From contig BDSI01000062.1 in NCBI GenBank assembly GCA_003117195.1, positions 351,726-415,725 on the forward strand: a stretch of 64,000 nt of DNA, given 5' to 3'. Source of the stretch: Eudorina sp. 2006-703-Eu-15 (lineage: Eukaryota; Chlorophyta; Chlorophyceae; Chlamydomonadales; Volvocaceae). A program made the translations under genes and the position numbers. Shown here piece by piece: positions 43,885 through 64,000 of this stretch. How positions within the stretch are numbered: position 1 is the stretch's first letter; each line of letters begins with the position of its first letter. A model generated the notes under the pieces. That model was given only the letters and a program-made list of their open reading frames with translations, was not told where the DNA came from and did not search any database.

Positions 43885-46800
43885 TCAAAGGCCCCGCGAC
43901 CCCCGCCGCCGCCTTGCCCACCGTCGCCTGGCACCCCGAGCCGCTGCCTCCGCCGCCCCCGTCCCGACCGGCCCGACGATGACGACGACGCACTCCGCCT
44001 TGTGACCTGCCCGCCAGTGCGCCGTCTGGCAGTCGCGGCTGCAGTACGACACTGTACGGCAGCGGCCGCAGGCCTGCAGCCGCAGCGCCGCCTCCGTGTC
44101 GCCCTCCAGGTTGGTGCAGTCGGGGTTGGAGCACGTGCGCAGGGCCGAGGACAGATCCGCCGGGGAGGCCAGGCTGCGAGCCGCCATCGCTGCCGCCGTC
44201 GACGCCAGCAGCTGCTCCGCCCGTATGCCCCCTGCCGCCACTGCCCGCAGGTCGTCGCCACTGCTGTCCTCCTCGTCCGCCGCCAGACACGCGACGGCCC
44301 ATCGGCTCAGCCGCGACGCCAGCGCCTCCACCTCCATCGCCAGGACCTCCCACTCGTTGTCGCTGCCCGATGCCCGCAGGTCCGCCGCCAGGCTGCGGAC
44401 GAGCTCCGGGGGCCAGTACGACACAGGCTGCTGTGGAGGCGTCGTCGCCGCCGCCGGGACCGCCGCCGCAGGCCGGGCCGCCGACGTCGTCTCGCCACCG
44501 GGGGTAGCGGAGCCGCCGGGTGCGGCGCCGACGGCGACTGCGGCGGATGGCCCCCTCGCCGCCGCCATCGCATCGCGCACGTCCCGGGGCATCCCATCCG
44601 CCACCAGGATCAGAGCCGAGGCCAGGTGCACTCGGCACCAGCTCAATTCGAGGGCCTGGAAGAGGCCGCGACGGCGCCACTCGCCGCCGCCCTGCAGCAC
44701 CCTCAGGCCGATGCCCAGCACCGACAGCATCTGCCCCCGGCGCAGACGGAGGACGGGATCGACGGCATCAGCGGCGGCGGCGGCAGCGGCCCTGACGGCG
44801 TGCCCCGCCGCGGCGGAGTCTGCAGGGATGGAAGCGGGTCCGCCATCGACTCTGCCACCACCGCCTCCGTCGCCGCCGGAGCCGCGGCTGTCGTCGTCAA
44901 CAGCACCGGTGCCACGGGTTGCGTCGTCGTCGCCGGCTGCGGTCGGCGAGTTGCGTGCAGCGGCGGTCGCAGCCTGTCTCCAAGCCAACAGCGCCGGCGC
45001 GGCGCGAACGAAGGCCCAATTCAGCTGCATGTGCAGCATATTCCGGAACCTTCCGATCAATACCTCGTCGTCCCGGCCCGGAGGCGCCTCCGCCTCATCG
45101 CAAGCGCTCAGCGTCTCGAAGTCCCGAATCAGCTTCGCCGCATCGCGCGGCAACACGGACTCCATCGCGGGTGACAGCACCGCCGCCAGCCGCTGCACTG
45201 GCAGTGGCGGCGGCGGCAGCGGCAGCAGCGGCGACGTCACTGTCACCGCACCGCCAAGCCCCGCCGCCGCCGCCGCGTCGTCGTCCGCTGCCCGTTCCGC
45301 GTCGCAGCGCCTGCCCGCATGGCCGGTCGCGCACGACAGCAGCGCCATACGACCGTTGGCCAGCAGTACAATATCTAGCTCCGAAACCAGTGCCGCGACC
45401 GCATCCGATCCCGCGCCAACCGGCCCGACGAGGGAGCCGTCGGCAGCCGCTGCGGTCACAACCCCCAGGTCCAAGTCCCGGTCCTCGCAGCTGCCCCCGC
45501 GGCGGCGCATCTTGCGCAGTGTGGCCGCGAAGGACGCCACCTGCCGGTCACTGCCGTACGCTAGCAGGTACGGCAACGGGTACGTCGCGTCCTCCAGCAA
45601 CGCTCCCAGCAGGCGGCGCTCCGGGCCCGATGGGTCCCGGCAGGCGCGACGCAGCAGGCGCTCCAGGGCGGGCAGCAGGCCGCCGGTCAGCGCCGCCGCG
45701 ATGTCTGGCGGCGGCGGCGGCCGCAGTGGAGGCGGCGCGGCGGCGCGCGGAATGCCGCCTGCGGCATCCGATCGCGTCGACAAGCAAATGGAGCACAAAT
45801 CGATGCAGCACGTTCCAGATGACCGAAAAAGGGCTGTCCCAAACTCCCCAATGGCAGCAGTAATGCACCCCCCTTTTTATAATAACTAGGGGTTTAATTA
45901 CCGGTGCAGCCGGTAGTAGCTGGATGTGAGGAGTATCTTCAACAAATAGGGTTATGCAGCGGGTAAGCGGATTAAACAAAAATGACGTCTCCTCACACAG
46001 TGGACAATCGCCAAACTGATGAGCGAGGGCAATACCCGTTTGTGTGAACTGAGCAAAGGGGAGACCCCCAGGATAGATAGAGCCCCTTCCACTGTCGTAC
46101 ACGTCGTACGACCCGAGCAACATACGATGTACCCAGTTCCATCCAGTACCATTTCCTGATAAGGCTCACAACAAGGTAAGGCCCACAAGAACGAACACTG
46201 ACCGCACCGCTTACCGCCGCCAGAGGACGTGTCATCACCGGCGTCATCTGGCCCGTGATGTCTGCCGCCGCCCTCTCCGCCGCGTGTGCCGCCACGTGTG
46301 CCGCCGTCGGCCTCTCCAGGCGACAGCCGAGGCCACAGCAGGGGGGCAAAGCGTTCCACACTTCCGGTCCCAAGCCACCACGCCACATGACCCAGAATGT
46401 CAACGGTCAACCGCCAACGGGCAACCAACATGCCAGCTGCTGCAGACGCAGCGGGTGTGGTAGTGACGGCGCTGTCGCTGTCGTACAGCAGCGAATGTAC
46501 GGTCTTCAGGGCGTGTTTGGCAGCGGAAACGATCGGGCCTCGGGGCAGCACCATCCGCGGCTGGAAGGATACCTCCGAACGCCCCCTCATCAGCCCACAG
46601 CCACCACCGGGCGTTGCCGTGCTGCCGCTCCCGCTTGAGCTCACGCCGCCGCCGCTGCCGCCGCCGCCGCCACCCCTGCCTCCACTGCCGGTCACTGCGG
46701 CCTCCTCCTCCTGCTGCAGCTGCATCCTCTCCTCCTCCTCCCGTCGCCTCCAGACCCGCGCGGAGTCCACCGCCAGCCGCCCGATCCGCAGGGCAAGGGC

Positions 46801-49259
46801 CGTCAGCGCCCGATGGCTGACTAGGGGCGGGCCAATCGTTGACAGTGTCACCGCGTGCAGCAATAGCTCGAGCGCCCTGCATGCCGTTTCCGGGAGGGCC
46901 GGACCAGCGGCGTCAATTGCCTGCGACTGCGGCTGCTGCGGCGACTGCGGCTGCTGCGGCGACTGCGGCTGCAACTGCGGCTGCTGCTGCGGCGGCTCCT
47001 GCTGCAGAAGGCCGAGGCGGAACCTGGCAGAAGGCTCAAGGGCTCTGAGAGACCCCATGATGACTTGGTGCATGCCGTACAGCATCTGTTCCGGCACGCC
47101 GTACGTTGTCTCCCCATCTGCGGCGTGCAGCGCCGTCACCGCCGCTGCCAGCACCAGGTACTGCACGCCGTGGGCCGACAAGGCCGTACGCAGCCGTACG
47201 GCGGTTGAGGATGACCGCGGCAGTCGCGACAGCGCTTTCAATAAAACGCTCAAGATGCCCAGATGGTCTGACAGACTCGATCCGCGCATCCGCTGTTGAG
47301 CCATGCCGTAGAACGCCTCTGCAGCCGCAGTGGTACCGCCCGCTGCCACGTCACCCTGTCGTACAGCCGGCGGCGGCGCCATCAGCTCCGCCTCCGTCAG
47401 CAGCGCCCGGGCCGCTTGGTCCAGTACGGCGCTGTCCGCCAGAGCGGCCACCAGCTCGTCCAAGTACGACGGAGGCAGCCTCCCCTCATCGAAAGGGTAC
47501 GTTCGCTGCGTCATCTGGACTGGGATTCGAAGCGCCCAAACCACTTGCCACAGCTGGGCGTTCAGCACAACCGCGGCATCGGGCAGGCCTTGGCCCTCCG
47601 ATGGTGAGGTCTGCGCCGGCAGCAGCCCGTGGACGGCTCGCGCCGCAGCGGTGGTGGTGGCGGCGCAGAGGCTGCGGCTCCAGTGCCGCAGAGCGCCCAT
47701 TCGGAGCAGGGCGCGAGCCAGGCGGACGGCGGCTGCAGCGGCGACACCGGCGTTTGCGGGGATTGGGCTTTGCTTCAAGGTCTTCAGTGTTGTGTAATCC
47801 ATGGCGACTGTCAAGGCCCATAACGCCGAGCCGCTGATGAAGCGGCTGATGCTGCTGATACTGCCATCCATGTCGGCGATGTTGGAACTGGCCGACCCGG
47901 GTGGTGAGTCATCGAAGGAGAGCGCGTGGATGGTCAACAGCGCGCGGCAGAGGGGGCGGTTGTGCAGAATGGCGCCCGCCGCTGTTGCCGCCATCGCCAT
48001 CGTCTGAACAGTTTTTGGAACATGCCGATACGAAACTAGATCCAAAATCACATCCAGGTAGCGCTTCAGGTAGATGATTAACTGGGCGTGCACGTGAGTT
48101 GCGGACGGCCCTGATGGATTGCTGCCAGGCGCGGAAGAGCGCCCTCGCGGCTGCGGCTGCGGCTCAGGGTCACGGCTTTGCTGCTGCTGGTATTGGTGGT
48201 GAGAGAAACCTCGTCGGGGTTGGGGCCAGTAGTGCAAAGATAGGTAGGCAGGTGGTCAAGCAGTCCGGGTATGGTGAAGGGGTAAAGGAGGCGAAGACAG
48301 AAAAGAAAGGTACCAGGCGAGTTTCTAGTGAGTCCGGTTGACGCGTAGTAATCGTACCGAAGTTACTACTGAATGCGCCTCTAGTTGGGGGCGATGAGAG
48401 AGAGAATAAAAGATTTGGGTTAGGGTGCTCGCGGAGTGCAAGGTGCAAGTGCAGCTAGTGCGCAGAGCATAGGGCAAGGCACGTCACGACGCGTTTCGGC
48501 CTTGCCAGGGCCTCATCAGGTGACTTTAGCTACCGTGCCTAGTGCGCATGCAACCTAGCAACCCCGGAGCCCGTAACCCTCGTTTCACGTGTCGCGGTAG
48601 GGCTTACGTTTTTGGGACGTCGGTTGCAGTCGAACGACGTGGGGACGTTGGGCAAGCTTGAGCGGTGTAAGCGGTGGGCGGTCGGGCGGGATCGATGTCG
48701 CGGACTTGTCTTAGGTGCGGCGGTCGGCGTTGCGGTGGTCGAGCAGCGCGGTGCTTGGCGGAGTTCGTATTTTGCTCGGTCTCAGGGGCAGTCTTCGAAG
48801 CGGCCAGGTGCGCGCGCGGCGTGGACTGGGCCGGCGGTCTTGGCGACGGTGTGCAGGAAGTTGTGAGGAACAGATATAATTTTTGGAACGTTTTGAGAGA
48901 TGGTTCATAGTGAGGCGCGGCGGCGTATTTAAGCCCGCGTAAAAGGGAAGGGTGTACGGCGGGGATCCGGTTTCGGAGGGAGGTTTTCGTTTGGATGGTC
49001 GAGGTGTGCCAGGATATGATTTTTTGCCCGTTAATTTCATTTTTCAAGCAGATTTCGTTCGTAATGGAGTTGGTAGATGACGAGCCGTCATGAGGCGAAA
49101 AATCGGATTTTGAGGAGGAGCGGATTGGCGGGTAAGCCGTTTTGGATTTTAACAGGCGGGTGATGTGCGTCATATTGCGGTGAGACAAAAGGGGCCGATA
49201 TGGAAAAATATCGGGTTGTTGCAGTATTTTGGAGCTAGCCAGCGAACCGCCCGTGATAG

Positions 49260-49324
<65 letters not shown>

Positions 49325-49537
49325 ATTCTGTTTCAACAACTGCAGCAGCTGATCTGCGGCGTCGGGAAGCTTCTCGAACGCTTCTTCCAGGTCCGCGGGC
49401 AGCAACCTTCGCGGCCCTGCTGCGCTCGTCCCTCGGGCGGGTCGAGCGCGCGAGGACTGCTGGCTGCCGCGCTGCTGGCCCGACTGAGATGCGGCTGCTG
49501 CTGCTGCTGCTGCTGCAGCTGCTGCTGCTTGTCGCAT
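43885..49537 (-). CDS. MYND zinc-finger protein, copy 1 (N-terminus split by a retroelement insertion)
   Basis: Exon 1 runs from ATG 49537 to a donor at 46215 (GGCG|GTAAGC). Exon 2 is 45758-43885, joined in phase. Exon 1 starts MRQ-polyAla, then LLPADLEEAFEKLPDA and poly-Gln, where the 48186-49261 insertion breaks the frame; it resumes as QQQSRDPEPQPQPRG. The long Ala/Leu-rich, probably alpha-helical body contains Gln- and Gly/Ser-rich linkers. Near the C-terminus of exon 2 is a full MYND finger: CSNPDC, then ACGRCRTVSYCSRDC and HWRAGHKAEC. MYND fingers are protein-interaction modules; no SET or other catalytic domain was seen, so function is unknown. Without the insertion it would be about 1,350 residues. 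No GT donor exists at the left insertion edge, so the insertion is unlikely to be spliced out; translation could start internally, for example near 48000. Confidence 0.75.
48186..49261 (-). mobile_element. Retroelement fragment with hammerhead ribozyme, inserted in a CAG tract
   Basis: Comparison with MYND copy 2 (uninterrupted CTG run at 56700-56731) shows about 1.08 kb of extra sequence in copy 1, flanked on both sides by CTG/CAG repeats. It is AT-richer than the gene. On the minus strand an open frame (from about 49258 to a TGA at 48604-48606) precedes a hammerhead ribozyme (48540-48477), then about 290 bp to the far edge. That layout fits the 3' part of a Penelope-like element with its pLTR, or a retrozyme. 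No reverse transcriptase or GIY-YIG motif was recognised, so it is truncated or non-autonomous. No clear target-site duplication could be told apart from the CTG repeats. Confidence 0.7.
48477..48540 (-). ncRNA. Hammerhead ribozyme (type I)
   Basis: On the minus strand all core positions are present: CTGATGA, then stem II GGCC/GGCC closing a 7-nt loop CTGGCAA, then GAA, then a minimal stem III ACGCGT and the cleavage nucleotide C (GTC). Self-cleavage is predicted between plus-strand positions 48488 and 48487. Stem I pairs GTCAC with GTGAC, followed by an asymmetric 10-nt loop and an outer helix AGGCAC/GTGCCT. That loop and loop II could make the tertiary contact that natural hammerheads need. 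The very short palindromic stem III resembles hammerheads described from Penelope-like elements and retrozymes, which tend to act as dimers. Confidence 0.92.
49262..49323. repeat. (CTG)n about 20 copies, poly-Gln coding on the minus strand
   Basis: About 20 CTG triplets, read as CAG (Gln) in MYND copy 1. Copy 2 has about 10 at 56700-56731. This is the insertion site of the ribozyme-bearing element. Confidence 0.95.
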
Positions 49538-50164
49538 TCTCAAACCTAGCTATGTCGCTGGCTGACTGACTCAGTGCTGTGGGGCACTCCACTGCGATCC
49601 TCCTTGAAATTAAAGCCTCGTATATTCAAATAAGAAACCAAAATTATCCTCGAGAGCACTCCATCCATTCGGCGAGATCATCACCAGTCATCGAGATTGC
49701 TCGCACTAACCCGGTAGAGCTGTTCATGCTGAGTTGCTATCGTTGACATGGGATGACTAAAAACGATAAATCGTAAATCTGCACAGACCTCTTCGAGGTT
49801 GACTCTGAGCCAATAATGTGAAACTTCTCGTTGCCTCGTTCGTACTTGCGCAAATCCAACGACCCTGCCCGAGGCGTTTCGGTTCCGCAGTTCCGCGCTC
49901 CTCGCGTTCCCAGCAAGACCTTGCGCACTTGCTGCTCCCCATACCGGTAACTCGACTTATGCCCATTGTATGAATGCATGAACGTTACAGCGGACTCCAA
50001 AGGGATCGACGGTGTGTAGCAGGGCAAGCCCCAGCTTGTCTTTCGGGTATCAATTTAACCCCAGCACGCCAGCAGGCCCCACCCACAATGCCCATTGTCA
50101 TGAGCAAGATGGAGCAACTGAGCGCTCGCCGGGCCACACGCCCCAGCGAGCTTGCTAACACAAT

Positions 50165-50869: not shown

Positions 50870-52640
50870 GACCGACTGACACCGACGCACGACCCGCGCG
50901 CTGCGGCCCTGTATGTGCCCGTCCCCTACCTTCCGGCGGCGCGACCGACCTGCCGTACTGAGCAGACAACTAACTAAATCGCGCAGTGCATGCACGCTCC
51001 CGTAGCCACCGTCAGCAGTCCCAGATTCAGAATTGCTACGTTTTCTTCCAACCGCAAGCAACTCTCCCAGACACCCTTGCTTACTCAACGCACCACAGTC
51101 CCCTCTTTGCCCCCCATATGTTCTCCCGGCATTTGATTGCGATGGGCTGCCTGTCCGGGCGGCAGTTCCCTTCCCCCACCTCCGTCCCTCACCGACAGGT
51201 CAACGACCACCAGATGCAACTCCTACCTCAGCTGCCTGTCCCAGTCTATGGGCCGGGGAGACCATCATTGCACGCACCGCACCGCACCGCACCGACCGCA
51301 CTGTACCGGTGCAAATCTTATCCTCTGGCAGCTTGATTGCTCCCAGTCCTTCCGCATCCCACCTATCGGCACCTACCAAGGACAGGGCCATCATGGATAC
51401 TACTCGGACGCGTAACGTCAAGTCGCCATCACAGACCCCTGCGACCACACGCGTGCATACTGCCAGGCTGGCTGCGATGGATGGACCTCCGCCTACCTGT
51501 GTTGAGATAGGGTAGACCCCAACCTCGCCCCCGCCTCCGCCCCCGCCAAGGGGGATCAGCCCACACACCGAGGAGTGGGGACTGAGGCTCGTGGGCCTGC
51601 CATGCATCCGTGAGTACGGTCCGTGATATGAGGACGGTACGGCCGACGGATTACGGGTACGGTCGGTACCGGGTACGGAGATCCCTGTACGAACTGCTAC
51701 GGCCCACAGGCGTGTAACTCTGCTTCAGTGGCCGGCATCCCCGTCCGCGAGCCCGACTGCGGGAAGCATCTCCAAGATCGACTTGGACATGACCGATTTT
51801 ATGCAGATTTTATGTCGACGATCTCGTTCGGGGGTGGCACCATCCGCGGCTGCGAGAAGACTTCCTGAGGCTCCCCCATCTCGCTTGAGCCGCCTCCGCC
51901 GCCTCCGCCGCCTCAGCCACCATCACCGCCGCCGCCAGCAGCATCGCTGCTGCCGCCGCCACGATTGATGCCGCCACCGCTGCCGCCGCCGCCCCCGCGG
52001 CCCGGCTGCAGGCTTTGTTGCGGCGCGGCGCTGAGGGATTGCGGTGCCGTACCGGCCACACGTGAGTTCCCGCCGCCGCTACCACCGCCACCTCTGCCGC
52101 CGCCGCCGCCGCCGGGCACTGCGGCCGCCTCCTGCTGCTGCTCCATGCCCTTCCAGATCCGCGCGGAGTCCACCGCCAGCCGCCCGATCCGCAGGGCAAG
52201 GGCCGTGAGTGCCCGATGGCTGACGAAGAGCGGGCCGATCGTTGAAAGCATCGCAGCATTCATCAATAATTCGAGGTCTCTGCATGCTGCGAAGGGAAGC
52301 ATCGGAACCGCAGCGTTCACAGGCTCCCCACACCAGCAAGACCCACACACCAGCCCGGCAAGCAACAACAAATTTAACGCGAGAAAAATCATACAATTAC
52401 AAACAACAAGGCAGGGACTCAAACAGACAGGTGACAAGCACACATGAAGTACGTCGGATTCCCCGTGAGCCCAATCCAGGGCCTCCACATGACACAGCAT
52501 CCGCCTTGCCGTCCTGTACGGTACCCAATTCCAATACATCACAACGACAGAGCTATGGATGCACCAGTACGACACAGTGACAGCTGTGAACTCTCTAGCC
52601 AGGGCAGCTGCCTGCTGATGGCCCCGAACATTCCGCGCTG

Positions 52641-53061: not shown

Positions 53062-53963
53062 CATCACCGGTGGCGGCGGCGGTCGAGGCATCACAGGCGC
53101 CACGAAGAGCTGCAGAGGCAGCGTCAGGCGACGCTTGCACAGCCGCCAGCGCCAGCCCCCAAAATGCTGGTGCTGGCCAGCACCCTGGCGCTGATGGTCC
53201 CCCAGTCCCAGGTGGCTGCAGGCGAGGTGAGGATGCCTCCGTGGGGAGAGAGGGGCGAGCAATGGAGGGTGGGAGGCGGCAGACTCTGCGAAGACTGGTG
53301 GCGGCGGAGCAGCAGCTCGCAGAAGCAGTAGCAGCAGCGGCGGCGGTGGAGCAGCAGCGCACAGAAGCAGTAACAGCGGAAGCGGCGGCGGTGGAGCAGC
53401 GTCAGGCGCCAGCCCCCAAATGCTGGTGCTGGCCCTGGCGCTGATGGTCCCCCGGTCCCAGGTGGCTGCAGGCCAGGTGAGGATGCCTCCATGGGGAGCC
53501 GTTGGCGGGGCTGGGCGACTGCCTGCCCCTCTCTCCCCACGGAGGCTTCCTCACCTGGCCTGCAGCCACCTGGGACCGGGGGACCATCAGCGCCAGGGCC
53601 AGCACCAGCATTTGGGGGCTGGCGCCTGACGCTGCTCCGCCGCCGCCGGTGCCGCTGTTACTGCTTCTGTGCGCTGCTGCTCCACCGCCGCCGCTGCTGC
53701 TACTGCTTCTGCGAGCTGCTGCTCCGCCGCCACCGGTCTTCGCAGAGTCTGCCGCCTCCCACCCTCCATTGCTCGCCCCTCTCTCCCCACGGAGGCTTCC
53801 TCACCTGGCCTGCAGCCACCTGGGACCGGGGGACCATCAGCGCCAGGGCCAGCACCAGCATTTTGGGGGCTGGCGCTGGCGGCTGTGCAAGCGTCGCCTG
53901 ACGCTGCCTCTGCAGCTCTTCATGGCGCCTGTGATGCCTCGACCGCCGCCGCAACCGGTGATG
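53062..53963. repeat. Long inverted repeat 1 (arms about 435 bp, spacer about 34 bp)
   Basis: Left arm 53062-53498 and right arm 53533-53963 are near-perfect reverse complements. Landmarks are CATCACCGGTGGCGG versus its complement at 53949-53963, GAGCTGCAGAGGCAGCGTCA versus TGACGCTGCCTCTGCAGCTC, and CCCCAAAATGCTGGTGCTGG versus CCAGCACCAGCATTTTGGGG. Within each arm there are also direct sub-repeats of the ATGCTGGTGCTGG...CTGATGGTCCC block. RNA from either strand would form a long duplex. Confidence 0.9.
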
Positions 53964-55378: not shown

Positions 55379-56696
55379 AGCGGTGAGGGTGGTGTCTGCT
55401 GCTGCGGCTGCAGATGCTGTCGCTGTCGAGGAGAGCGCTCAAGGTGGACTAGACAATAGCCGGGCTGCTGGGCAGCGCCTCCTGCTGTGAGGCGCCCGCC
55501 GGTGCAGGTGGCTCCGGCTCCTGGGAGAGGAGAGGCAGGGTGACGTCCGCGGGCTGCGACAGCAGCAGCAGCAGCAGCAGCAGGAGCGGGGCCGCCGCCG
55601 CGTTCAGGGTCAGTGGGCAGTCCATGATGGATTACTGAGCAGGAGATAGATGATGCTCCAGAGCAGCAGCATTGGTCGCGGAGGCCTTTGGGTCGTTCAA
55701 GCTGCGGCCGCGATTCAAGTGGTGGGTCGCCGGCATACAGAGCGCAGGAGCAGCAGCACCCCAGCTCAGCTCACGCAAGGTAGGGGCGGCAAACGAGCAG
55801 ACAGACAGAACCGGATATGCCCGCGTACTAGAGATATGCTGGGGCAAAATGAAATTTGAGCTTGCGGATATGGGTGTCGTACAGCCGTTGGCGGCGCCAG
55901 CAGCTCCGCCCCCGTGAGCAGCGCCCAGGTCGCGTGGTCCACAGTAAGGTGCTGTCCGCCAGCGCGGCCACCAGCTCGTCCAAGTACGACGGAGGCAGCC
56001 TGCCCTCGTCGAACGCGTACGTTTTCAGGGTAATCTGGACCGGGATCCTAAGCGCCAAAACAACTTCGATCAGCTGGGCGCTCAGCACTGCCGCGGCATG
56101 GGGCAGGCCTTGTCCCTCCGATGGTGAGGTCGGCACCGGCAGCAGCCCGTGGACGGCCCGCGCCGCGGTGTTGGCGGCGCAGAGGCTGCGGCTCCAGTGC
56201 CGAAGAGCGCACACTCGGAGCAGGGGGCGAGAGCCAGGCGGACGGCGGATGAGGCTGCGACACCGGCGCTTGCGGGGATTGGGCTTTGCTTCAAGGTCTT
56301 CGGCGTTGTGTAATCCATGGCAACTGTCAAGGCCCATACGGCCGAGGCGCAAGCAAGCGGCTGATGCTGCTGATGCTGCTGATGCTGCCATCCATGTCGG
56401 CGATGTTGGAACTGGCCGACCCGGGCGGTGAGTCATCGAAGGAGAGCGCGTGGAGGGTCAACAGGGCGCTGCAGACGAGGCGGTTGTGCAAGATGGCGCC
56501 GGCCGCTGTGTCTAGCCGCCACCACCATCGTCTGAACAGTTCTTGGAACACGCCGATACGAAACTAGATCCAAAATCACATCCAGGTAGCGTTTCAACTG
56601 GGCGTGCACGTGAGCTGCGGACGGCCCTGATGGATAGCTGCCAGGCGCGGAAGAGCGCCCTCGCGGCTGCGGCTGCGGCTCAGGGTCGCGGCTACG

Positions 56697-56728
<32 letters not shown>

Positions 56729-56833
56729 CATTCTGTTTCAACAACTGCAGCAGCTGATATGCGGCGTCGGGAAGCTTCTCGAACGCTTCTTCCAGGTCCG
56801 CGGGCAGCAACCTTCGCGGCCCTGCTGCGCTCG

Positions 56834-56859
56834 TCCCTCGGGCGGGTCCCTCGGGCGGG
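56834..56859. repeat. 13-bp tandem duplication, frameshift in MYND copy 2
   Basis: TCCCTCGGGCGGG occurs twice in succession. Copy 1 has it once (49429-49441). The extra 13 bp shifts the N-terminal reading frame. Confidence 0.95.
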
Positions 56860-56931
56860 TCGAGCGCGCGAGGACTGCTGGCTGCCGCGCTGCTGGCCCG
56901 ATTGAGATGCCGCTGCTGCTGCTTGTCGCAT

Positions 56932-59829
56932 TTTTAAACGTAGCTATGTCGCTGGTTGGCTGACTGACTTCCCAGCGTTGTGGGGCAATCCACTGCGGTC
57001 CTCCTTGAAACCCTCAACCCTAAACCCCTTGATAATGATGTAAAGCCTCATATAACCACATAAGAAACCCAAATTATTCTCGTGAGCACTCCATCCATTT
57101 GGCGAGATCATCACCAGTCATCGAGACTGCTCGAACTCACTCGGTAGAGCTGTTCCTGCTGGGTTGCAATCGTTGACAAGGGCTGACTAAGAAAGAGTAA
57201 CCCGTAAATCTGCATGATTGCGGACAGACGTCCTCGAGGTTGACTCTGAGCCAATGTTACGCTTGCTTCTCGTGGCCCCGTTCGTACTTACGCGAACTCC
57301 AACGACCCTGCCCGAGGCGTTTCGGTTCCGCAGTTCCGCGCTCCTCGCGTTCCCAGCAAGACCTTGCGCACTTGCTTGCTGCTCCCCATACCGGTAACCT
57401 GGCCTATGCCGCCCATTGTATGAATGCATGAACGTTAAAGCGGACTACAAAGGGATCAGCGGTAGGTGTATAGGAGGGCAAGCCTCAGCTTGTCTTATCT
57501 GGTTCAATTGAACCCCCTGCAGGCCCCACCGACAATGCCCATTGTCATGAGCAAGATGGAGCAACTGAGCGCTCGCCGGGCCGCCCGCCCCAGTACGTCA
57601 TTCCTCAAATACGTCATTTTCCCAGATGCGAATGAACGAGGTAACAGAGACCCAGCCACGGGCCACCAGGCCGCGGAATCAGCGTCCCTTCCGGGCCAAC
57701 TAGCAAGTGTAGTTCATCCAGCTACGTACCTATCCGGCGGCCCCGGGTCCTGGCCCCAACTCGCACGCGAGATGCAACACACCGGCGGCAGGCACGCACC
57801 GATGTTCATTCGATCGATCCCGTTGCGCACGAGGGGTCCGCTGTAATGATACCGTTTCCACGCAGTCGTTCAGCCATCCTGTAGATTACCGTATACAACC
57901 CGTCCATGAGCAATTCAGCACTTGCTAGACCCGCATCAATTTACGGTATGTACCGGCATTTGACCCACATCGAAATGGCCGCTTTTTCTGCTTTGCTTAC
58001 CGACCACGTTGCTCGTTAGTACCGAACGGTATCATTCAGCATTGGTTGCAGCTTTGCAGCAACACCACGCACGCAGCATGGGCGCTGCCGTCTCCATACA
58101 CACACGGCGGCACACGTTTTCCGATGCGGTGTTAACCGAAAGCAGTGTACGGCAATGGGGCCATGCACGACACTGGGGACCGTGTACGGGACGCACTTGG
58201 CACGCAGGACCCGCTGCCCTGTATGTGGCCGTCCGCTTCCGGCAGCACGACCGACCTGCCGCACTGAGCAGGCAGCTGACTGAATCGCAGTGCGTGCACG
58301 CTCCCGTAGCCAGCGTCAGCAGATCCAGATGCGACATTTCTGCGTTTGGTTCCAACCGCAAATCCAAAGCAAACCTCCCAGGTTGTCCTGGAAAACACCC
58401 TTGCTTGCCCAACGCACTGCGGTCCCCTCTTCGCCGCTGTTATGTGCTCCCGGCATTTGATTGCGATGGGCTGCCTGTCGTTGCGGCGGGCAGCTCCCTT
58501 CCCCCACCTCCGTCCCTCACCGGCAGATTGACGACCACCAGATGCGAAACCTACCTCGGCTACCTGTCCCCCCGCATCCGGGGGGACCATCATCGCTCGC
58601 ACTGCACCGTACCGTACGGCACCGTACCGTACCGCACCCGCGCAAACCTTATCCTCCGGCAGCTTGATTGCTCCCAGTCCTTCCGCATCCCACCTACCGG
58701 CACCTACCAAGGACAGGGCCATCATGGATACTACTCGGACGCGTAACGTCAAGTCGCCATCACAGACCCCTGCGACCACACGCGTGCACACTGCCAGGCT
58801 GGCTGCGAGGTACTCGCGGATGGACCTCCGCCTACCTGTGTCAAGATAGGGTACGGTAGGCCCCAACCTCGCCACCGCCACCGCCGCCACCACCCGCCAC
58901 CACCGCCACCACCGCCACCGCCGCCACCGCCGCTACCGCCGCCATCGCCGCCACCACAGCCACCGGGGATCAGCTCTCACACCGAGGAGTGGGGACTGCG
59001 GCTCGTGGGCCAGTCATGCATCCGTGAGTACGACCCGTGATATGAGGACGGTAGCACGGTACGGCCAACGGATCACGGGTACGGCCGATGCTGGGTACGG
59101 AGATCCGTACACTAACTGATATGGCCCGCAGGCGTGTGACCTCTGCTACAATAGTCGGCATCCACTCCGTCCGCGCGTCCGTCCGCCCGTGAGAAGCCTC
59201 CGACATCGACTCGGACGCGACCGACTTCAATCATATTATGCATAATGAGTAACCTCGCGGCCAACTACTCCAGGCACGGCGTCTGACGGTGCGCGCCATG
59301 GATGCTCGTCCCAACCGACCAACCCACCGTCCTAACGACCTTGACCCCGTGACTGGGCGCGACGTCTCTTTCGCAGGGGCCTTGGGCCAATGTTCGACCC
59401 GCCCTAGCTATAGCCGTCACTACCCAGCCACATGGGCCTTACATGCCGAACATAGACTTGGGACAATAAGACCCCCGCACAACCAGCCCTCTTCTCCTCA
59501 GGTGCCGACGATCGACTGGCCCAGCAATGTTGCCGTACTGATGTACGACAAGGTGTAGTACAGCATCTTCAGGTCCGAGCGTCCGACCCGCCGGCGGCGA
59601 AACCTCGCGAAGAACAGGAAAAATGCTCCTGCCCGTACTCGGCTCCGCGAGCAAGTCGATATGACCGCTCTGGATCTATGGCGACAAACCCGGATCTGGA
59701 TCTAGACACATGACCACAGCTTCGGCCACAGGTCGCCCCGCTCTAAGATATGAACCACACCCACATAATATCATCATAGTCCCCCGCCATCCCGCTCCTG
59801 GACCCGACCCCCGCGATCGACCCCGACCC
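56932..59829. other. Flank between MYND copy 3 and copy 2
   Basis: No gene recognised. 56932-59250 is the duplicate of 49538-51814. From about 59287 the sequence matches 43490 onward, the 3' flank of copy 1. A TGTAA signal candidate for copy 3 (TTACA on plus) is at 59439-59443, about 390 bp past its stop. A (CCGCCACC)n tract lies at about 58864-58966. Confidence 0.5.
58864..58966. repeat. (CCGCCACC)n-like tract
   Basis: A run of CCGCCACC, CCACCGCC and CCGCTACC units. The homologous place in the other duplicate (51522-51545) has only a short CGCCCCCGCCTCCGCC, so the array expanded locally. Confidence 0.85.
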
Positions 59830-62800
59830 TTAACCATCGGCCTCCGTTACATCTCCCGCTGTTTTGACCACCGCCTCCGTCGCCGCCTTGCCCACCGTCA
59901 TCGTCGCCTCCGCCGCCTCAGCCGCCGCCTCAGCCCCCGTCCCGACCGGCCTGACGACGACGACGCACTCCGCCTTGTGACCCGCCGCCCAGTGTCCTTT
60001 TTGGCAGTCGCGGCTGCAGTACGACACTGTACGGCAGCGGCCGCAGGCCTGCAGCCGCAGCTCCGCCTCCGTGTCGCCCTCCAGGTTGCTGCAGGCGGGG
60101 TTGGAGCACGTGCGCAGGGCCGAGGACAGATCCGCCGGGGAGGCTAGGCTGCGAGCCGCCATCGCTGCAGCCGACGACGACAGCTGAACCACCCGTATGC
60201 CCGCCGCCACTGCCTGCAGGTCTTCGCCACTGATGTCCTCCTCGCCCGCCGCCAGACCCGCGACGGCCCATCGGCTCAGCCGTGACGCCAGCGCCTCCAC
60301 CTCCATCGCCAGAAGCTTCCACCTGTGGTCGTTGCCCGATGCCCGCAGGTCCGCCGCCAGGCTGCGGACGAGCTCCGGAGGCCAGTACGACACTGGCTGT
60401 GACGGCGCCGCTGCAGCCGCCGCCGGGTCGGCCGCGACGGATGCGGTCGCCGCCGCCGCTGCCGTACCACCGCCTTTATTGTACTTGCGGGAGCGGCCGC
60501 ACGTGCCGCCCCCGCTGGCGCCCGCTGCTCGCTGGGCCTTCGACGCTTCCGCCGCTGCCGCCGCCGCCGCCCTGACGTCTTGCGGCATCGCTTCCGCCAC
60601 CAGAACCAGTGCCGTAGCTAGCCGTTGCTTCCAGTCGGGCGGATCGGATGGACCGCCACCTCCGACACCCTCCTGCAGGGCCCTGAGGCCGATGCCCAGC
60701 ACTGATAGCACCTGGCACCGCTGCAGCAGTCGGATTCGCCAGTCATCCCCGCTGGCGCCGGCGGACCCAGCCGCGTCAGGATGAGCATCCGTTACGTCAG
60801 GCCCGCCGCTACCGCCACCATCAGCGCTGCCGCGGCCGTAAATGTTGCCGGTTGTGGCGCGGTCGTCACCGCTGCTGGATGTTGTGGCGCGGCTACCGGC
60901 CAGCCCCGAGCTGCCCGCGGAGGCAGACTCCTCGACGGCTCCGGAACCCCGTACGGACGACGCCAACATGCAAGCCCAGTCGATATGCATTCCCAGCGTG
61001 TTCCAGAAACCCGCCGCCGCCTTGTCCGTGCCGCCCTCGACGGCTGCCGCCACGTCATCACGACCGCGCAGTTTCTTGAAATCCTTGATCAGCTGATCCG
61101 CACTGCGCGGCAAGGCTGACTGTGCGACAGGCACCAGCACAGCCGCCAGCCGGCACAGCGGCGGCGGCGGCGGCGTTGGCGGCGGCGGCGTTGGCGGCGG
61201 CGGCGTTGGCGGCGGCACCGGCGGCGGCACCCTCGGCTCCGCGCCAACGGGCGTCGTATGGAGCGTACCCTGTCGCCTGACATCGCACATCCGTAGGAGT
61301 GCGTGGATGCTGTGCAGCATCACCGCGTTTAGCTCCGAAACCATCACGAGGTAGTTGGCCGTGTCCCCCTGTATGCACGGCACCCCGCTCGTGGGGTACC
61401 CGCCGGCGAACATAGCTTGCACTGCCGCCAAGTAGCTTTCCTCCCGGCTGAGCAGCTTGTACAGTGTGGCCGCGAAGGACGCCACCTGCCGGTCACTGCC
61501 GTACGCTAGCATGTACGGCAATGGGTGGATAGTGGTGTTCTTCAGCAACGCCCCCAGCAAGCGGTACTCGGGGCCACACGAATCCCGGCAGGCGCGACGC
61601 AGCAGGCGCTCCAGGGCGGGCAGCAGGCCGCCGGTCAGCGCCGCCGCGACGTCCGGCGGCGGCGCCAGTGGCGGCGCGGCAGTAGGGGGCGCATCGCCGC
61701 CTTCAAATTTGAATTAAGGCGGGTTCAGGGCCCATGACCAGGTCAGGTGGTGGTTTTCAACCGACATGGCCGATCGATTCAAGCACAGGTTGGCGGCGTC
61801 AAAGGATCCCGCTTTGGTTTTGGTTAGTCAACGAAACTAACTATGCCGTACAAATGCTTTTAATTTTACCGCCAAGGTACGGTACGGCACCACCAAGACA
61901 ACCTGCCGCAGACAGGTCGCGCACGCCGTACAGTCAGGGCGGCAAATGCCATCGTACACCCCCTGCCTCACCAGTCCCTGCGTTTGGCAGCTATACCTCT
62001 GGTAAGGCCCTCACAACAACGAACACCGACCGCACGTCTTACCGCCGCCAGAGGACGAGATGACACCGGCGTCTTCGGGCCCGCGATGACTGCCGCCGTC
62101 CTCTCCGCCGCCGTTGCCGCCGCCGCGTGTGCCGCCGTTGGCCTCTCCAGGCGGCAGCTGAGGCCACAGCAGGGGGGCGAGGCGTCCCACACTTCCGGTC
62201 CCAAGCCACCACGCCACATGGCCCAGAACATCGACCGTCAACCGCCAACGGTCAACCAACATGTCCGCGCGCCAGCGGTCGCTACCGCCAGCTGCTGTGG
62301 ACGCAGCGGGCGTGGCAACGACGGCGCTGTCGTTGCGGTACAGCATCGCACATACAGTCTCCAACGCCTGATCGGCAACGTGGACGATCTCGTTCGGGGG
62401 TAGCACCATCCGCGGCTGCAAGAAGACTTCCTGAGGCTCCACCATCTCGCTTGAGCTGCCGTCACCGCTGCCGCCGCCACGAGCAATACCGCCACCGCTG
62501 CCGCCGCCGCCCCCGCGGCCCGGCTGCAGGCTTGGCTGCGGCGCGGCGCTGAGGGATTGCGGTGCCGTACCGGCCACGCGCGAGCTTCCGCCGCCGCTAC
62601 CACCGCCAACATTGCCGCCGCCGCCGCTGCCGCCGGGCACTGCGGCCGCCGCCTCCTCCTCCCGGCGCTCCCAGACCCGCGCGGAGTCCACCGCCAGCCG
62701 CCCGATCCGCAGGGCTAGGGCAGTGAGTGCCCGATGGCTGACGAAGGGCGGGCCAATCGTTGACAGTGTCACCGCGTGCAGCAATAGCTCGAGCGCCCTG

Positions 62801-64000
62801 CATGCCGTTTCCGGGAGGGCCGGACCAGCGGCGTTCGCAGGCTCCTCCTCCTCCTCCTCCTCCACTTTCTGCGTCCGTCGTTGAGTGCGCGGCGGAAGGT
62901 CCAAAACGCCTAACGGGAGAGCGCTTTCCTGCCCCGGATGCCCCCCAATCGCTTGTTGCATGCCGTACAACAGCCTTGCCGGCATGCCGTACGATGTCGC
63001 GCCGTCGGCGGCGTGCAGCGCCGTCACCGCCACTGCCAGCACCAGGTACTGCACACCGCGGGCCGACAAGGCCGTACGCAGCCGTACGGCGGTTGAGGAT
63101 GACGGCGGCAGTGGCGCCAGCGCTATCAATAATAAGCCTAGGATGTTCATAAATCCTGAACGCGACCTCTCATCGCCCATCTGCTGTTGAGCCATGCCGT
63201 ACAACGCCTCTGCAGCCGCAGTCGTACCGCTCGCTGCCACGTCACCCTGTCGTACAGCCGGCGGCGGCGCCATCAGCTCTACCTCCGTGAGCACCGCACG
63301 GGCCGCGTGGTCCAGTACGGCGCTGTCCGCCAGCTCCGCCGCCAGCTCGTCCAAGTACGACGGGGGCAGCCTGCCCTCGTCGAACTGGTACGTTTTCAGA
63401 GTCATGTTGACAGGGATTGAAAGCGCCAAAACCACTTCGGTCAGCTTGGCGTTCAGCACTGCCGCGGCATGGGGCAGGCCTTGGCCCTCCGATGGTGAGG
63501 TCGGCGCCGGCAGCAGCCCGTGGACGGCTCGAGCCGCGGCGTTGGCGGCGCAGAGGCTGCGGCTCCAGTGCCGCAGAGCGCCCATTCGGAGCAGGGCAAG
63601 AGCCAGGCGAAGCGTGGCTGCGATGGAGGTGTCGGTCGGCCGGGCGTCGGGCAAATTTGCAGAGGTCATGCGAGTTGCAGTCATGCAGATGGACACGATC
63701 CTCAGGGCCACGTCGCCCAGGTTTCTGCTCAGGCCGCTGCCGCTGCCGCCGCCCTGTCGAGCCCCCAAGGCCGAGTCGCCAAGCAAGCCACTGATCCCGC
63801 TGGTGCTGCGCGGCATGTCGATGATGTTGGAACTGGCCGACCCGGGCGGTGCTGCGCGGCATGTCGATGATGTTGGAACTGGCCGACCCGGGCGGTGAGT
63901 CATCGAAGGAGAGCGCGAAGACGGTCAACAGCGCGCGGCAGACGGCCTCATTGCGGAGAATCGCTGGCCAAAACGCTTGTTCCGTTGATTCGGGCATGAT
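59830..64000 (-). CDS. MYND zinc-finger protein, copy 3 (5' end outside the window, frameshifted)
   Basis: Exon 2 is 61700-59830 (acceptor TTTGAAG, ending TAA). Exon 1 ends at 62043 (GGCG|GTAAGA) and extends past the right edge. Landmarks shared with copy 1 are FALSFDDSPPGSASSNI, LRMGALRHWSRSLCAA, FDEGRLPPSYLDEL, ALRIGRLAVDSARVW, LGHVAWWLGTGSV, AAALTGGLLPALERLLRRAC and PYMLAYGSDRQVASFAATL. The MYND finger is intact near the C-terminus (CSNPAC, ACGRCRTVSYCSRDC, HWAAGHKAEC). A 46-bp tandem duplication at 63803-63894 puts the upstream part of exon 1 out of frame with the rest, so this copy may be inactive, may use a later start, or the duplication may be an assembly error. Confidence 0.7.
63803..63894. 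repeat. 46-bp tandem duplication in MYND copy 3 exon 1
   Basis: Two identical 46-bp units (63803-63848, 63849-63894) each begin GTGCTGCGCGGCATGTCG and end CCGACCCGGGCG. Copies 1 and 2 have the corresponding sequence once (47861-47909, 56386-56430). Forty-six is not a multiple of three, so the reading frame changes across it. Confidence 0.95.

Follow-up and report, generated by a model that had tools for sequence, protein, structure and literature searches.

A type I hammerhead ribozyme within repeats that insert into CAG tracts and move through RNA in a Eudorina genome

An insertion in the poly-Q tract of a host gene

The stretch of DNA analyzed here (hereafter, the window) comprises 64,000 nt of contig BDSI01000062.1 from Eudorina sp. 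2006-703-Eu-15. On its minus strand, a host open frame at 49261..49543 ends in ...LLKQNEQQQQ, and a second host frame, beginning with QQQQSRDPEPQPQ..., lies downstream at 45952..48189. Between the two sits a 1071-bp unit (48190..49260, minus), a solo copy resembling a terminal repeat, which belongs to a family of elements we term A. The insertion is in the sense orientation and interrupts a CAG (poly-Q) tract, with a CAG/AGC tract at its 5′ flank (49261..49323, minus) and a short CAG tract at its 3′ flank (48181..48189, minus). A tandem paralogue at ∼56.6–57.0 kb encodes this protein without a break and with ten Q residues, and its poly-Q tract (56600..56800, minus) represents the empty site. 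Comparison of the two loci shows that the element copy broke the host gene at a coding poly-Q tract. A frame further downstream (43885..45798, minus) contains a MYND finger (PF01753, E 1.7e-10) and is probably part of the same host gene.

The window holds several tandem paralogous pieces of this MYND-finger family, at 44001–48189, 51814–52327, 55875–59227 and 59976–63945. It also contains, at 53062–53963, a long inverted repeat that is 94% identical to its own complement. The element copy itself includes a 240-aa frame, which we consider unlikely to be coding because single-base indels are found among A copies.

A type I hammerhead with a minimal stem III

Read on the ribozyme strand, the window copy has the form (CAG)n-CCTATCACGG...ribozyme...CACCAATAC-(CAG)n. 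The ribozyme, a type I hammerhead, occupies 48477..48540 (minus). From 48540 to 48477, the minus strand reads AGGCAC-GGTAGCTAAA-GTCAC-CTGATGA-GGCC-CTGGCAA-GGCC-GAA-ACGCGT-C up to the predicted cleavage site and GTGAC-GTGCCT beyond it. Stem I is formed by GTCAC/GTGAC and AGGCAC/GTGCCT, stem II by GGCC/GGCC with the loop CTGGCAA, and stem III is reduced to one A-U pair around a palindromic CGCG, a weak type I form. The elements of a type I core are all present: CUGAUGA, GAA, the closing A-U pair and a UH cleavage triplet. By the hammerhead rule, cleavage would fall after GTC, between 48488 and 48487 (minus). An earlier note, made from the sequence alone, had described a complete hammerhead here, and our reading of the minus strand agrees with it as to the core nucleotides and their order, stems I and II, the cut site and the minimal palindromic stem III, ACGCGT. 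The 10-nt loop that it placed in stem I is also there; it is one-sided and lies on the 5′ strand.

When the 64-nt piece was folded on its own, the minimum-energy structure was not the hammerhead, and the best structure with stems I and II lay 1.2 kcal/mol higher, in a folding model that cannot form the ribozyme's stem III. Shuffling gave unremarkable z-scores (–0.73, 0.84 and –1.17 for pieces from families A, B and C, respectively). In longer A and C pieces, the predicted minimum includes a competing helix between GGCAAGGC and GCCTTGCC. Within 48473–48540 of the window, GGCAAGGC, located in the loop and 3′ strand of stem II, is able to pair with GCCTTGCC immediately downstream, as it also is in family C. 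On the folding model, this pairing is a possible off-state of the ribozyme. The lone copy in the window may cut poorly by itself, because it has a single ribozyme with a one-pair stem III.

The earlier note had looked to Rfam for a hammerhead match. RF00008, a type III model, does match the window ribozyme, but at 24.0 bits it falls short of the gathering threshold of 48.5, with an E-value of 0.0071 in a search of 401 bases and of 1.1 across the window as a whole; at gathering, Rfam gave no match anywhere in the 64-kb window. The same result was obtained for the ribozymes of two other loci examined in this way (L003 and L006), and three further loci (L009, L019 and L012) had no Rfam hammerhead up to E 5. 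A genome-wide search with RF00008 returned 0 matches, as did its 14 controls. Rfam matches to isrG and Afu_254 in L003, L006 and L009 fall on CAG/CTG repeats and look artefactual.

Could the resemblance to a hammerhead be accidental? The Rfam score below gathering is what speaks for this. Against it stand the copy number, the pairing of the stems relative to shuffles, and both the reversed-pattern and Markov controls. A motif descriptor (CTGATGA, stem II of 4 pairs, GAAA, A..T stem III, H17, stem I of 5 pairs) matched once in the window and in 0 of 1588 first-order Markov windows of equal size. The 28-nt core, with up to 2 mismatches allowed, is present at least 52 times across the genome (181 Mb), 49 exact and 3 with one mismatch, and the reversed pattern in none. 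These counts uphold the earlier view that a chance origin is very unlikely. Given the genomic copy number and the reversed control, we conclude that the ribozyme is not a product of chance, a comparative proof obtained at an Rfam score below threshold; an accident of sequence has a vanishingly small probability and is, in our view, already refuted. A looser pattern, with no constraint on stem II and tolerance for one mismatch, gave 55 matches, made up of the same 52 and 3 unrelated strings, and 1 match in the reversed control. Scans for the exact 28-nt core in viral and prokaryote collections gave 0 matches each. A covariance model (R1; window plus 18 of 45 loci) gave 8 matches, one of them in the window. 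At another locus (L022:4736–4805), there is a further, degenerate hammerhead, scoring 44.8 bits to R1, which lies upstream of family A pieces and a broken reverse transcriptase (RT)-like frame in contig C175.

Conservation of the ribozyme in three element families

By a manual tally, forty of the 52 core copies were read in their loci. The ribozyme copies form three families, A (that of the window), B and C, with an additional diverged copy in L012. Pairwise searches of seven element bodies showed that the families share just 53–85 nt around the ribozyme, the sole match found between families. We could rule out that the A, B and C ribozymes are unrelated, as stem II and its loop are identical, and that the ribozyme is free-standing, as it is located inside a repeat.

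Among 16 distinct sequences, 91.1% of stem cells pair, a value reached by 0 of 500 shuffles. Pairing is most complete in stem II (98.4%) and inner stem I (95.0%), lower in the outer helix of stem I (79.3%), and limited to one to two pairs in stem III. No shuffle attains the covariation score or the count of cells in which both bases are altered (10). Counted by pair, such changes number 2, the same as the mean of the shuffles, and there are 6 pair types against a shuffled mean of 7.8. Both bases differ at two stem I pairs in 5 of the 16 rows, all from family B (U-A to C-G and C-G to U-A), most likely reflecting a single event. Modest covariation thus supports stem II together with an open stem I. 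These data identify the window motif as one copy of a conserved, multi-copy type I hammerhead with a minimal stem III.

One might ask whether the ribozyme, as a passenger of the repeat, no longer serves any role. Inactivation is to be expected in some copies: GTG replaces GTC in L007 and L013, the 5′ strand of stem I is broken in L014 and L015, and the core is changed in L016 and L012. Such a view must contend with the 28-nt core being exact in 49 of 52 matches, with the compensatory changes in stem I, and with the 40 nt from the core, which are 97–100% identical in five within-family comparisons, and we consider it unlikely. In other 40-nt bins, identity ranges from 10 to 100%; for the 40 nt preceding the core, it goes from 60% (L014 versus L009) to 100%.

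Insertion into CAG tracts through an RNA intermediate

Element ends from families A, B and C that could be recognized by pattern adjoin CAG/AGC/GCA on the ribozyme strand in 73 of 73 cases, a count in which a few loci overlap, some ends are inner ends of composite B units, and copies lacking an end are left out. At one locus (L011), an A, a B and a C element and then a piece of A follow one another, with CAG tracts between them. These junctions show that all three families insert into CAG tracts.

The window copy corresponds to the A copy at L006 minus two GT-AG introns, the two aligning over 1071 columns with 0 gaps and 1061 identities (99.1%). Missing from the window copy are a 231-nt intron of the form GTAAGT...AACAG, leaving an exon junction at 48766..48767 (minus), and a 249-nt intron of the form GTAAGT...CACAG, with its junction at 48696..48697 (minus). 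The exact loss of both introns implies that the window copy derives from spliced RNA, and comparison of the copies in this way shows an RNA intermediate for the element family. In the window copy, a donor-like GTAAGC (48600..48612, minus) precedes the ribozyme and is unused; A copies, B copies and 5 of 6 aligned C copies have a donor-like GTAAGC, GTGAGC or GTAAGT on the upstream side of their ribozymes.

Most A copies retain both introns, intron 1 being missing from 1 of 7 rows that cover it and intron 2 from 1 of 8, where two rows (L001 and L002) probably represent a single copy in two pieces. In family B, an intron of the form GTAAGC...TGCAG (intron 2) is kept in 4 and missing in 10 of the 14 aligned rows listed, with two of these rows representing one locus and another two one unit. 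A further intron has been exactly removed from a B copy, L008. The single large deletion examined in family C (L010) has no intron borders. From this pattern of presence and absence, we infer that the elements move via RNA that can be unspliced, partly spliced or spliced.

Larger elements and an RT-like frame

Family B occurs both as solo copies and in the arrangement B-CAG3-internal-CAGn-B. The direct repeats are ∼1.3 kb each, and the two ribozymes of such a unit are 2.1 kb apart. In three units (L021, L023 and L028), the outer flanks differ and the paired B copies show 0 differences; on contig C786, identity to the B query is 100% for one copy and 99% for the other, so that this pair is not identical. 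The internal part looks non-coding, and in L029–L031 it includes the end of a frame of which L019 has a longer version. A retrozyme model, in which a non-coding element with a hammerhead in direct repeats would be moved by the RT of another element, fits these B-internal-B units and the solo copies.

On the ribozyme strand, B is preceded by an RT-like frame in L019, as is A in C175. The L019 frame contains SFDQTQDVTQCFERIP, CGIPMGIHPDPDWCNLYLLSYE and YRLMDDLRT, which we take to resemble RT motifs of the Penelope/telomerase group; its first ∼40 residues are a dispersed repeat. Beyond residue 130, the frame matches at least four places in the genome (among the best 77 of 881 candidates). Its relative in C175 has frameshifts and stops and ends ∼74 bases before a 5′-shortened A copy. 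Sequence searches of Pfam, NCBIfam, PHROGs and PDB with this frame returned nothing convincing, and no match to Pfam RVT_1. The frame did not match the LINE RT of L033 when the two were compared by profile, no match was found in phages, and none of 7 pattern-matching stretches in viral_contigs is a relative. Two AlphaFold models of the frame, with pLDDT values of 34.8 and 35.8, were useless. On the strength of the motifs, larger members of the family appear to encode a Penelope/telomerase-like RT. A pseudo-LTR arrangement with a hammerhead and retained introns, as expected of Penelope-like elements (PLEs), is seen here in the B-internal-B units, in the A and B copies that follow RT-like frames, and in the introns kept by most A copies.

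An LTR-retrotransposon or a plant-type retrozyme with true LTRs, its solos arising from LTR recombination, could also explain direct repeats of this length that flank an internal part and are identical to each other in three units, as well as the existence of solo repeats. The ends, however, lie in CAG tracts rather than being TG..CA, CAG3 stands between the left repeat and the internal part, and no primer-binding site was noticed by eye. Moreover, the RT-like frame lacks RVT_1, and its four loci are absent from the best 150 of 1052 PF00078 candidates. We regard true LTRs as quite improbable.

We also looked for an endonuclease and for other partners. No endonuclease was found for the ribozyme elements, nor any GIY-YIG frame next to those examined. 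PF01541 has 3 matches in the genome, and neither a ribozyme nor a CAG tract of 4 units is present in their 6.5-kb pieces. These (L034, L035 and L036) represent a dispersed repeat with a GIY-YIG frame, for which no link to the ribozyme was found. They were rejected as partners, having no CAG tract of at least 4 units; the RT frame in L035 is of the RVT_1 type and on the other strand. LINE partners with CAG tails were likewise rejected, none of 8 RT loci read 3′ having a CAG tract of >3 units. The 10-kb stretch between L001 and L002 is not an autonomous partner either: it holds a LINE (RVT_1, Pfam) on the opposite strand that splits an A copy. This LINE lies in C121:323548–335580 (L001, L002, L032 and L033), and ∼350 bp of A is present on both sides of the ∼10-kb insert, an unusually long duplication.

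DISCUSSION

We think it probable, from the sequence relationships, that this type I hammerhead sits in the terminal repeat of a CAG-targeting, RNA-mobilized family, whose larger members apparently code for a Penelope/telomerase-like RT, and that it processes multimers for copying. The ribozyme and its family, the RNA intermediate, the CAG-tract insertion and the insertion into a host frame are shown; the processing role is our interpretation.

Among the A and B matches listed (best 40 candidates each), none begins or ends at the cut site. As the insertions span this site and none listed ends there, the template must be RNA that is either uncut or re-joined. Uncut RNA would suffice if host/element transcripts were copied from CAG to CAG by target-primed reverse transcription, with a ribozyme that is weak or serves only to remove unwanted multimers, and no circle would be necessary. 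Consistent with such linear read-through, the cut site is intact in solo copies, stem III has one pair, and both introns are kept in most A copies, hence an unspliced template. It accounts less readily for the retention of the ribozyme core in three otherwise unlike families, and for the identity of the B copies in three B-internal-B units, though not on C786. We view it as a possibility to be taken seriously, but not the one we favor.

For re-joined RNA, under the processing role that we favor, the following steps can be envisaged. The ribozyme likely acts as a dimer, given its one-pair stem III and palindromic segment and the precedent in newt and axolotl. Transcripts of the repeat-internal-repeat form would carry two ribozymes, whose ACGCGU stem III segments would pair as a dimer, and cutting at both would free a unit-length RNA, probably then ligated to a circle. 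A nicked (CAG)n tract would prime RT on the RNA's own (CAG)n, and the enzyme would copy on to the next (CAG)n. Copying of one repeat would give a solo insertion, as in the window, and more than one turn would give repeat-internal-repeat. A circular RNA, with a stop at the first or second (CAG)n, would therefore produce both observed insertion sizes. Only tentatively do we propose the full version, in which hammerhead-made circles are the template of a Penelope-like lineage, the (CAG)n of the circle anneals to nicked coding (CAG)n, and the RT halts when it passes its own (CAG)n for the first time or on a subsequent round, so that a single molecule gives both insertion types.

The earlier note had remarked that hammerheads with a short stem III are established in PLEs and retrozymes. 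In keeping with this, the copies belong to a retroelement family with an RT-like frame beside the repeat at two loci, and the carrier is a putative PLE. The elements bear on two questions, the persistence of hammerheads in PLEs and retrozymes and the mobility of intron-bearing PLEs. Here, a single genome offers related copies with a clear RNA step, a defined CAG target, two insertion sizes and a ribozyme kept across unlike families, which makes the role of the ribozyme testable. The window also provides a case in which a coding poly-Q tract is disrupted by one of these elements.

Craig and colleagues are said to have described, in 2021, the Chlamys clade, PLEs of green algae with an N-terminal endonuclease, a microsatellite bias and pseudo-LTRs, and without canonical hammerheads. 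Green algal hosts, microsatellite bias and pseudo-LTRs are thus reportedly common to both, whereas the elements studied here have a hammerhead, and no GIY-YIG endonuclease was found adjoining them.

By analogy with the type I hammerheads that amphibian retrozymes and PLEs carry, the ribozyme would work in the same way. The newt/axolotl retrozymes (HHR_Amex1) are similar in having a one-pair helix III, a palindromic tetraloop, stem I and II loops, and repeats (PMC7229834). Amphibian hammerheads of this kind cleave much better as dimers (PMC7229834, PMC6155905). Unlike HHR_Amex1, our elements have an algal host, 1–1.6 kb units in CAG tracts, introns, and an RT-like frame upstream at two loci. 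The minimal hammerheads of PLEs and Terminons are also type I, with almost no helix III, and lie in repeats of an RT-encoding element, and they are described as without helix III or tertiary loop contacts (PMC7761336, PMC6155905). In contrast, both loops are present here, judging by sequence, along with the CAG-tract insertion and a putative RT. Plant LTR retrozymes resemble the B units in having a ribozyme in both direct repeats around a non-coding internal part, but have mostly type III hammerheads and LTR signals where ours have type I and CAG ends (PMC4918200, PMC11722881). Isolated algal hammerheads are already mentioned in PMC4918200. What sets the Eudorina elements apart is the combination of an algal host, CAG tracts, introns, a terminal-repeat position and an RT-like frame.
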